Source: Paraburkholderia ginsengiterrae (GTDB lineage Bacteria; Pseudomonadota; Gammaproteobacteria; Burkholderiales; Burkholderiaceae). From it: a stretch of 64,000 nt of DNA. How positions within the stretch are numbered: the stretch's first letter is position 1; the number at the start of each line of letters is the position of its first letter. The stretch covers positions 18,682 to 82,681 of the forward strand of contig NZ_LXKA01000276.1 of NCBI RefSeq assembly GCF_001645125.1, given 5' to 3'. The notes beneath the pieces were generated by a model. It had not been told where the DNA came from. It saw nothing but the letters and a program-made list of their open reading frames with translations, and made no database searches. The translations under genes were made by a program, and so were the position numbers. This document shows positions 40,110 through 44,035 of the stretch, piece after piece.

Positions 40110-40610
40110 TCATCCTTGATCCGCAGGCGGCGTTCGATACTCGATTGCGCCGCCGGGCAAAAAATACAGGATGAGCGCTTTCCTGGTGACCGTTGGGAAA
40201 TGCTCGCTAAGCGGCGGAAACACGCACCAGCCCGCGCCATGTCCACAAAACTGCGCGCCTTCTTCGAGTGGAATGATCATGTTGATCTCTCCGTTCGTAT
40301 GGCAGTGGTACTGTCCCTTCACATCCCGCAACAGCCCGCTTTCGATGCTCATGCCGGCCGTCTCGGGCGAAGGTTCCGCGATGCGACCCCGCCGGTAATC
40401 CGCGCCTTCGATTTCCACATACGCCGCCCACCCTTCTTCGACCCCGATTTTCAGCAGGCTCACCATGCGCGCGTAGGATTGGGTACCGACTCCAAATTCG
40501 CGATTCAGATGCGACTCGAGCGTGCCGTCTAATGACCGCCCACGTATGCTGTCGCAGACTTCCCGCAACAGCCCCGACATCTCGTCCTTGTGAATTCCCG
40601 TGGGCAGCAT
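40110..40610 (-). CDS. DUF4863 / PnbB-like (4-hydroxylaminobenzoate lyase-like) protein
   Basis: The 166-residue soluble protein has a helical N-terminal half and a cupin-like C-terminal half with histidines in QYHCHTNGEINMIIPLEEG and FPPLSEHFPTV. This is the pattern I associate with DUF4863, which includes PnbB, the enzyme that turns 4-hydroxylaminobenzoate into protocatechuate in nitrobenzoate degraders. No nitroreductase or protocatechuate genes are nearby, so the activity is not implied. The ATG at 40610 has AAGGAG six bases upstream, and is preferred to the frame start at 40667. It converges with the porin gene. Confidence 0.6.
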   Translation of the reverse strand: MLPTGIHKDEMSGLLREVCDSIRGRSLDGTLESHLNREFGVGTQSYARMVSLLKIGVEEGWAAYVEIEGADYRRGRIAEPSPETAGMSIESGLLRDVKGQYHCHTNGEINMIIPLEEGAQFCGHGAGWCVFPPLSEHFPTVTRKALILYFLPGGAIEYRTPPADQG

Positions 40611-40868
40611 CAACGTCTCCTTACTGTTTGACTCCATACGCGGCTTTTGGCCGCTCCGCCGCCCCAAAGCCTGAGTTCGCGGATTCTGCCGCTAGCCGAA
40701 CGACCGTCAACCAGTCTAGAGGTGCAGGCGGGTGCTGAACAATCAAACATTCCGGCGCAGATATAAGCAATCGGAATACCGGAGACCCGCTGAAATTTTC
40801 TTCGCGGTTCCGGCAGAGCCGTTTCGGCAGCAGCCGGACCCGCGCGTGGCGAACGCGGAAGATTGCCC

Positions 40869-41712: not shown

Positions 41713-43842
41713 TCAGAGATCGACCTGGATGGATGCACGAACCGTTCGCGGCGCGCCGAGTGTGGCAGTGCCGCTATCGCTGCCGGTATAGCCGTTCTGG
41801 CCCGCCGGTGTGATGTTGGCCCAGTAGTGGCGGTTGGCTACGTTGTCGACGCCAACTCGCAGCGCCACAGCCTTGCCGGCGACTTTCGTCAGGTAGCGCG
41901 CGCCGAGGTTGAAGACCGTGTAACCGTCGGCGTAGTCGGTGTTCGAATAGTTGGCGGCGCGACGGCTCGCATAGTTCACGTCGACGTTAAAGCCGAGCCC
42001 GGCCACGGTCGGAATCGAGTAATCGATGAGCGCGTCGAACACGACGCGCGACAGGCCGAGAATCTGCGTTCCCTCGGTGGCGGCGACGCCGGTGTTATGC
42101 AACCGCGGATCCAGCAGCGCGAGCCCGGTGTAAATGTTGATATCACGCGTGACGGCCCCCGTCGCGGTCAGCTCGATCCCGCGATTCACCTGCTCACCCT
42201 GCTCCGCATAGACGTTGTTCGCGGTCACCATGGCATAGGGCCGCTCGATCCGGTAGAGCGCGGCACCCAGCGTCGCACGGCCGATATCGACCTTGTAGCC
42301 GAGTTCCCACTGCTTGCTGCGGTAAGGGGCGAGTTCATCGCCCGCGTTGACGGTGCCGGACGGTGCGATGTCGCCCTGCTGGAGACTGTCCGCGTAGGTG
42401 ACATAGGCGGTCATGTTCGCAAGCGGCTTGTACATCAGGCTGGCTGTCGGGCTGACGCCGTCGGCGCTGTACTTGCTCGTGACCGCCCCCGCCGAGTTGT
42501 AGTTCTCGGCATGGATCCAGCTCTGGCTCGCGGCCAGCAGCGTCGACCAGTGCTCGTTGAAACTGATCGTGTCGCCAACGCTGATCGCTTGCTGGAATGT
42601 ATTGACCGACCGATAGCGGTTCGAAAAATCCGGCAGCGGCGGCTCGCCAAAAAGCGTCGGATTACTAAGGTTTCCGGTACCGAGCGTGATCGCGCCGGTA
42701 TGGTATGGCGTGTAGCGGTTCCAGTAAAAACCGGTAGTCGACACGAACACGTCGTGGGTCAGGCCGGCGAGCGCGACGTGGCCGTTCAACGCGATCGTGT
42801 TGCTGATGATCTGGTCGAGACTGTAGGTCGTCGTCGCGGTCGTTTCCTTGTACGCGCCGCTGTTATTGGTGAGCGTGAGAGTCGGGACAGTCGACGCCCG
42901 GTCGTTCGTTTCGCGCTGCACGCCTGCGCTCAGGTGCCAGTCCTGATTGAAGTCGTGCTTGAGCGTCGCGCCCATCATGTTCGTGACGTTGTTGTCACCG
43001 GCCCATGACTGGCCGAACCCGACCGTTGCCGGATTCGGCGCGGCGGGAAGCAGCACGTTCTTCGCCAGCGCGAAGGTTCCGGGGTAGCCCGTGTCGAGGT
43101 AGTGGTACGTGCTGAAATTCGTTTCGAGCCGCGTGTCCGGCGTGAAACGGACATCGAAGGCGAGGCTCGCGAGGCGCCTGCGCAGACGGCTGTCCGAGAC
43201 ATAGCCCTCGCCATCCTGGTTGAGCAGATTGAGGCGATAGCCGAAGCGGTCGTCGTTGCCGAAGTGGCCGCCAAGGTCGAGATGCTCGGTCCACAGATCC
43301 TTCGACTCATAGCCCAGCGTGAATTCGCGCAGCGGTTCATCGGTCGGACGCTTGAGCACGTAGTTGAACGTGCCGGCCGGACTCGCCGGCCCGTAAAGGG
43401 CGCCGGCAAGTCCGTTCAGCACCTCGATGCGGTCGAACTGCTCGATCGGATAGTCGGTCGTCGCGGCGATGTTCATGCCGTCGATCCGCGTATTCTGGAC
43501 GACGCCCGCCTGCATGCCGCGCGTCTGGGGCCGGATATTCCAGCCCTGCACCGACGGAATGAAGGTGAATGCCTCCTGCACGCTGCGCAGTTGCTGGTTC
43601 TTTGCCAAGGACTCCGGAATGACGTTAATCGAATAAGGCGTATCGAGCAGCTTCTTTTCGCCGAGCGGCCCGACCACGGTCTGCTTGACCTGATACGACG
43701 GGTAAGTCACGGGCATGACGCCTGTGATGACAATCGGGGCAAGCTGAGCTTCGTTGTCCTGTGCATGAGCCGGGAGGGCCACGCCGATTCCTGTGTAGGC
43801 GAGTGCGAGCGTAGGTAATGTGTAGCGGGAACGTGGTGCCAT
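41713..43842 (-). CDS. TonB-dependent outer-membrane receptor
   Basis: The 709-residue precursor has a signal peptide ending ALPAHAQ, a TonB box (APIVITGV), a plug domain (ITGVMPV... to VLNGLAGALYGPASPAGTFNYVLKRPT) and a 22-strand barrel ending in RASIQVDL. The plug segment resembles siderophore receptors (FecA/FhuA class), but no N-terminal signalling domain is present, so it is not a sigma-factor transducer. The gene is directly upstream of a ModA-like gene, and a ModE-like operator lies 29-52 bp before its start. That context suggests a molybdate- or metal-chelate ligand instead of an iron siderophore, which remains an inference. Confidence 0.9.
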   Translation of the reverse strand: MAPRSRYTLPTLALAYTGIGVALPAHAQDNEAQLAPIVITGVMPVTYPSYQVKQTVVGPLGEKKLLDTPYSINVIPESLAKNQQLRSVQEAFTFIPSVQGWNIRPQTRGMQAGVVQNTRIDGMNIAATTDYPIEQFDRIEVLNGLAGALYGPASPAGTFNYVLKRPTDEPLREFTLGYESKDLWTEHLDLGGHFGNDDRFGYRLNLLNQDGEGYVSDSRLRRRLASLAFDVRFTPDTRLETNFSTYHYLDTGYPGTFALAKNVLLPAAPNPATVGFGQSWAGDNNVTNMMGATLKHDFNQDWHLSAGVQRETNDRASTVPTLTLTNNSGAYKETTATTTYSLDQIISNTIALNGHVALAGLTHDVFVSTTGFYWNRYTPYHTGAITLGTGNLSNPTLFGEPPLPDFSNRYRSVNTFQQAISVGDTISFNEHWSTLLAASQSWIHAENYNSAGAVTSKYSADGVSPTASLMYKPLANMTAYVTYADSLQQGDIAPSGTVNAGDELAPYRSKQWELGYKVDIGRATLGAALYRIERPYAMVTANNVYAEQGEQVNRGIELTATGAVTRDINIYTGLALLDPRLHNTGVAATEGTQILGLSRVVFDALIDYSIPTVAGLGFNVDVNYASRRAANYSNTDYADGYTVFNLGARYLTKVAGKAVALRVGVDNVANRHYWANITPAGQNGYTGSDSGTATLGAPRTVRASIQVDL

Positions 43843-43870: not shown

Positions 43871-43894
43871 CGTTATATCTTTCGGAATATAACG
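43871..43894. promoter_or_regulatory. ModE-like operator upstream of the TonB receptor gene
   Basis: A perfect inverted repeat CGTTATAT-N8-ATATAACG spans 24 bp and ends 29 bp before the receptor start. The E. coli modA operator bound by ModE-molybdate has, as I recall, the same arms and spacing. The box lies just downstream of a perfect -35 (next entry), so a bound repressor would cover the -10 region. Confidence 0.7.
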
Positions 43895-43905: not shown

Positions 43906-43911
43906 TGTCAA
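43906..43911 (-). promoter_or_regulatory. consensus -35 element for the TonB receptor operon
   Basis: TTGACA reads perfectly on the minus strand here. Possible -10 hexamers TATTCC (16-bp spacer) or TATATT (14-bp spacer) fall inside the ModE-like operator. The spacing is not ideal, so the exact -10 is uncertain. Confidence 0.55.
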
Positions 43912-44035
43912 CAAGGACGCTACGGGGTCTTGTTGCATCGATGCGTCGCGGATAAGGGAATACTGCTTATATCAGGAGAGCGATAGTGACCGTTCCGGCC
44001 GGCAAACCGATTCCGGCATTCGTCGGATTATATAA

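Follow-up and report, generated by a model that had tools for sequence, protein, structure and literature searches.

Is molybdenum actively imported across the outer membrane of Paraburkholderia ginsengiterrae? The customary view is that molybdate passes the outer membrane via porins and that energy is spent only at ModABC. In the window (the whole 64-kb stretch of DNA that was analysed), an operator of the type bound by the molybdate-responsive regulator ModE lies in front of the gene for a TonB-dependent receptor, and the features on which the following argument depends are collected in Table 1.

Table 1. Coordinates of the operator, the candidate promoter elements around it and the two genes downstream.
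Feature	Position	Strand	Remarks
ModE-type operator	43871..43894	.	Perfect dyad; E. coli K-12 modA operator has 1 mismatch; kept in relatives
-10-like TATATT	43886..43891	-	Within dyad; predicted from sequence
TTGTTG, likely -35	43909..43914	-	17 bp from TATATT; overlaps TTGACA; kept in L045, L050, L055, L061
TonB-dependent receptor, 709 aa	41713..43842	-	Plug and barrel domains; TIGR01783 263 bits, cut-off 223.5
ModA-type periplasmic binding protein, 280 aa	40869..41711	-	SBP_bac_11; TIGR01256 74 bits, cut-off 62.5

The operator and the likely promoter that it overlaps

The site reads CGTTATAT-N8-ATATAACG, and the perfect 24-bp dyad described in the earlier note was reproduced, with all 16 of its arm bases matching. 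No other place in the window matches at ≤ 3 mismatches, and dinucleotide shuffles gave a mean of 0.03. The earlier note had likened the arms and spacing to those of the E. coli modA operator, and this proved accurate: the operator of E. coli K-12 (NC_000913) is CGTTATATTGTCGCCTACATAACG, with one mismatch to the same arms, and is located 19 bp before modA. A consensus built from 48 distinct sites, picked by ≤ 3 mismatches to the dyad pattern, is CG[TAC]TATAT-N8-ATATA[AGT]CG, with position 3 free as in the published ModE consensus, ATCGNTATATA-N6-TATATANCGAT, found in the available part of PMC545781. Judged by its sequence, assignment of the dyad as a ModE operator is well supported.

The dyad had also been placed between a TTGACA and the receptor start. 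Both are positioned accordingly (TTGACA at 43906-43911 on the minus strand, ATG at 43842), but the TTGACA is not conserved: it was rejected as the conserved -35 because relatives do not keep it. It is only 14 bp from TATATT, three bases nearer than TTGTTG. The latter is retained in four relatives at 17-18 bp from TATAT[TA], as judged by eye, while a consensus scan for sigma-70 sites reported nothing at the receptor promoter. Since the -10-like TATATT falls inside the dyad, 17 bp from TTGTTG (Table 1), bound ModE should block the polymerase.

The receptor and its ModA-type partner

The receptor contains both PF07715 (Plug) and PF00593 (22-strand barrel) over cut-off, and also scores above the cut-off of TIGR01783, the siderophore-receptor subfamily. 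Its nearest solved relatives are FemA and BauA. The receptor operon proposed in the earlier note is present, although its second gene had been left unnamed there; this gene starts one base past the receptor stop and encodes a ModA-type periplasmic binding protein, which, within this locus, is the best evidence for a connection with molybdenum. Solved relatives of this protein are mostly molybdate-binding proteins, and it does not reach the cut-offs of the remaining listed modA models. No ABC genes (ModB/ModC) adjoin it within the window.

For comparison with E. coli ModA, we assumed the residue numbering and ligand list of that protein, including the role of Ser39. In the alignment the Ser12 place is kept and the Ser39 place is occupied by Ala, within a GPAG motif that is invariant among the ModA-type partners and sits at the ligand loop, so that the ligand of the partner may differ. 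Such an altered loop would further suggest a molybdenum chelate as the cargo. Cysteines 114 and 210 of the ModA-type protein are invariant in 24/24 aligned partners and have no counterpart at those columns in E. coli ModA. Downstream of the operon, at 40110-40667 on the minus strand, there is a 4-hydroxylaminobenzoate lyase-like gene (PnbB, PF16155, 157 bits); it was rejected as an operon member, being ∼200 bp downstream and having no match in the 80 loci considered below.

Conservation of the operator and the partner genes

The receptor gene is sparse in Burkholderiaceae, since a match at E ≤ 1e-100 was obtained in only 12 of 300 genomes, host included. Homologous loci were taken as the best 80 of 101 from a scan of named genomes. 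At 37 of these 80 loci, a box (≤ 3 mismatches) lies no more than 300 bp upstream of the receptor gene, compared with 0.06 by shuffles, and the level of the box was reached by 2 of 2,677 control tiles. The 37 loci have 0, 1, 2 and 3 mismatches in 2, 8, 18 and 9 cases, respectively. Conservation of the dyad before orthologous receptors, which the earlier note had proposed as a test, is therefore evident. The remaining 43 loci have no box at this threshold and distance; extending the distance to 2.3 kb adds 12 tree rows and brings the count to 49 of 79. By tree label, these are 20/24 in the ModA-partner clade, 28/42 in the MolA-type-partner clade and 1/13 in the outgroup.

In a gapless alignment of the six sites from the clade to which the window belongs, mean identity is 88% in the arms and 40% in the flanks, and the spacer has diverged. 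The Paraburkholderia and Rahnella loci of the second clade have the order FecCD-ATPase-receptor-binding protein, and there the box is found ∼2 kb upstream of the receptor, before the first gene. Pseudomonads of this clade have only drifted sites, mostly with 4-6 mismatches and mostly in the same place. Two Chimaeribacter loci (L102, L107) bear two tandem ModE-type boxes, 61-114 bp before the receptor start.

A partner gene was identified at 67 of the 80 loci, either ModA-type (24) or MolA-type (43), with some of the MolA-type matches kilobases off (L090, L111) or on the opposite strand (L102, L104, L107). The 13 loci without a partner are L056, where the contig stops inside the receptor, the pseudomonad loci L076 and L077, L110, L112 and eight from Acidobacteriaceae. 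In a quick tree, a branch with full support separates the 24 ModA-partner rows from all others. The partner in the sister clade, where the box precedes the operon, is a FecB-type protein and a distant relative of MolA. It was rejected as MolA proper because HI1472 (MolA), at 101 bits, is only the third best of its solved relatives, behind 4ovk (169 bits) and 4hn9 (140 bits). In Rhodanobacter (L062), a single strand carries, in this order, modA, modB, modC, a gene that by eye resembles Oxidored_molyb, a further receptor gene, the receptor considered here and its ModA-type partner, with no box at ≤ 3 mismatches. In Herminiimonas (L063), a 159-aa ModE-domain gene is divergent from the receptor and a 2-mismatch box lies between them.

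ModE and further boxes in the host genome and its relatives

The host genome scan covered 8.53 Mb in 393 contigs and returned 18 places at ≤ 3 mismatches versus 7 for the reversed pattern, with the window copy as the sole perfect one. Five of the 18 are tied to the receptor, modA or a molybdenum locus, namely the window, a site on contig C2 and three on contig C24 (at 45949, 49679 and 49861). The earlier note had proposed to check whether modE and modABC exist elsewhere in the genome and carry the same box. Both are present: C2 encodes a full-length ModE of 278 aa adjoining modABC, and a box with 3 mismatches (C2:158344) is situated 49 bp before modA. The profile match of this ModE, 96.2 bits, is just short of the curated 98.5; the protein has two SARNQL-type repeats, which we take to be typical of molybdate-binding Mop domains.

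A divergent molybdenum locus was found on C24. On one strand lie the genes for an Oxidored_molyb protein, for NifQ and for a 148-aa protein consisting of a ModE domain only; on the other, ABC genes come after that of a WtpA-like binding protein. Each side is preceded by a 2-mismatch box. NifQ (PF04891, 114 bits) and its two neighbours on that strand (L019:4969-6636) occur here in a genome without nifH over the cut-off, and nitrogenase was rejected as the source of molybdenum demand because the top nifH match reached 31 bits, where the cut-off is 394. On the same contig, a 1-mismatch box at C24:45949-45972 (L019:2950-2973) precedes an ORF without a Pfam match and a DUF2325 gene, which may be a new ModE target; the letters of this box recur in G304 and G346. 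Two further 2-mismatch boxes, one 10 bp before an rfbB-like gene (C123:77781-77804) and one before a LysR-like gene on C234 (both genes by eye), may be due to chance, although the first could equally be read as a further target.

A ModE domain at E ≤ 2.5e-18 was detected in 41 of the 46 genomes searched, these being all 41 of the non-Acidobacteriaceae. Four of the five Acidobacteriaceae genomes had no match and one had a match at 3.8e-4, which is LysR-level; at the Acidobacteriaceae loci, both box and partner are absent. By frame length, the top ModE match is of the short kind in G312 (222 aa) and G344 (142 aa). Of 25 genomes examined for boxes at ≤ 2 mismatches, at least five (G305, G331, G335, G336, G346) have one just before a modA that exceeds its cut-off and at least four (G300, G301, G312, G315) just before a modA-like gene with a weaker score, while G307, G327, G338, G343 and G344 have no box at this threshold. 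Reversed-pattern controls gave 0-4 per genome across the 25, and two chance boxes of the same quality occur away from the receptor in G340, an Acidobacteriaceae genome that lacks ModE, so single weak boxes constitute no evidence. Tatumella G330 (L095) has no modA match at E ≤ 0.001 and possesses the receptor, a MolA-type partner, the box and ModE; the receptor system may replace ModABC in this organism.

Proposed model and alternative explanations

The main claim of the earlier note, that a ModE-type operator precedes the receptor, is supported by the presence of modE in the genome, the box before modA in the host and at least five relatives, and the molybdate-type partner. The operator, its conservation, ModE and the operon partner can be read from the sequences themselves, and on this footing ModE regulation of the receptor operon is a strongly supported prediction. 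Taken together, the operator, ModA-type partner, conservation, ModE co-occurrence and lack of Fur enrichment make it most likely that ModE-molybdate represses an uptake system. Likewise, a box before an importer with a molybdate-type partner, kept in many relatives, points to active outer-membrane molybdenum uptake, and a role for the receptor in molybdenum acquisition is likely.

From these features we infer the direction of regulation, the substrate and the hand-over as follows. When molybdate is plentiful, ModE-molybdate would bind the dyad, covering the likely -10 and the start site, and so block the two-gene operon. Scarcity of molybdenum would lift the block, and the TonB-dependent receptor and the ModA-type periplasmic binding protein would be made. 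The receptor would then pump its cargo actively through the outer membrane, presumably as a free oxyanion (molybdate or tungstate) or as a molybdenum chelate. The binding protein would capture the cargo and deliver it to an ABC transporter of the inner membrane whose genes lie elsewhere, either ModBC (C2) or the WtpA-type system (C24). We consider this model of a ModE-repressed operon for outer-membrane uptake of molybdate, tungstate or a chelate to be probable as a whole. Weighing against it are the siderophore-receptor subfamily of the receptor, the Ala at the Ser39 place of the partner, the loci with no box close by, the drifted sites of the pseudomonads and the chance boxes of G340.

Of the alternatives, the most serious retains the same ModE control and differs in the cargo, which would be a molybdenum chelate (molybdophore complex) instead of free molybdate. 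Membership of the receptor in the siderophore-receptor subfamily, with FemA and BauA closest, is consistent with this, as are the invariant GPAG at the ligand loop of the ModA-type partner and the FecB-type binding protein of the sister clade, which resembles those of chelate importers. However, the partner still scores as ModA, and an unsystematic look noticed no chelator biosynthesis genes beside the loci; we therefore regard a chelate as quite possible without favouring it. The same subfamily membership could also indicate an ordinary iron-siderophore receptor whose link to molybdenum is incidental. Using what we take to be the Fur-box consensus, the top match in the window had 10/19 mismatches and the 80 upstream regions were at the resampled level, with no enrichment, on which grounds Fur control of the receptor was rejected. 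The joint retention of the box and a molybdate-type partner across families also argues against an iron receptor, and we find this explanation improbable.

The operator might instead mainly serve a short ModE-domain-only protein such as that on C24, and not full-length ModE. Proteins of this kind are encoded in the host genome and beside the Herminiimonas receptor, and the sole strong match in Novosphingobium (L123, G344) is the 142-aa frame. In the searched Enterobacterales genomes, however, there is one strong match each, in frames of 263-350 aa, and the box is kept, which makes this reading unlikely. It is most improbable that the dyad is simply a chance palindrome. Weak matches do arise by chance, as the reversed-pattern matches in the host genome demonstrate, but the shuffle expectation for the window is far below one, the arms are conserved where spacer and flanks have diverged, and 37 of the 80 loci have the box before the receptor.

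Beyond this locus, we lean towards the view that certain TonB-dependent receptors form a family of their own under ModE control, found in several Pseudomonadota orders with a ModA-type or FecB-type partner and with molybdenum as the presumed metal. If this is true, some cells spend energy on molybdenum at the outer membrane, as they do on iron and vitamin B12, and molybdenum joins the metals pumped across that membrane by TonB. Receptors that family models call siderophore receptors would thereby be reassigned. The named loci in many genomes, along with the short operator, provide a direct testing ground for outer-membrane molybdenum uptake.

Comparison with known systems

Studholme and Pau reportedly published a paper on ModE sites in 2003. 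Among the matches listed in our literature search, no title or opening of an abstract reports a TonB receptor regulated by ModE, although RegPrecise may hold an earlier prediction, and none is described in the available parts of PMC5343134, PMC545781, PMC4965479, PMC11734730 and PMC8602904. As presented in the available part of PMC8602904, MnoT of Burkholderia thailandensis is a TonB-dependent receptor for manganese that is induced at low manganese. It is similar, by description, in being a receptor for a non-iron metal, but it takes up manganese, supplied by a secreted T6SS effector. The T6SS-ModA-IcmP system of Pseudomonas aeruginosa also acquires molybdate by way of a step at the outer membrane, with a ModA protein; the available parts of PMC8602904 and PMC11734730 mention no receptor operon under ModE control. 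This precedent is different in kind. IcmP is described as a metalloproteinase-type outer-membrane protein, and ModA is secreted.

The siderophore receptors of TIGR01783, FemA and BauA among them, share the receptor architecture and are the nearest solved relatives; unlike in their case, the operator and partner genes here point to molybdenum and Fur boxes are not enriched. MolA (HI1472) of Haemophilus influenzae has its fold class in common with the FecB-type proteins that serve as partners in the sister clade, but two other solved proteins score above it, and we know of no receptor in the MolA system. With respect to regulation, the E. coli modABC operator has the same arms and spacing as the Paraburkholderia site, yet it governs an inner-membrane ABC transporter, whereas the Paraburkholderia site precedes an outer-membrane receptor.
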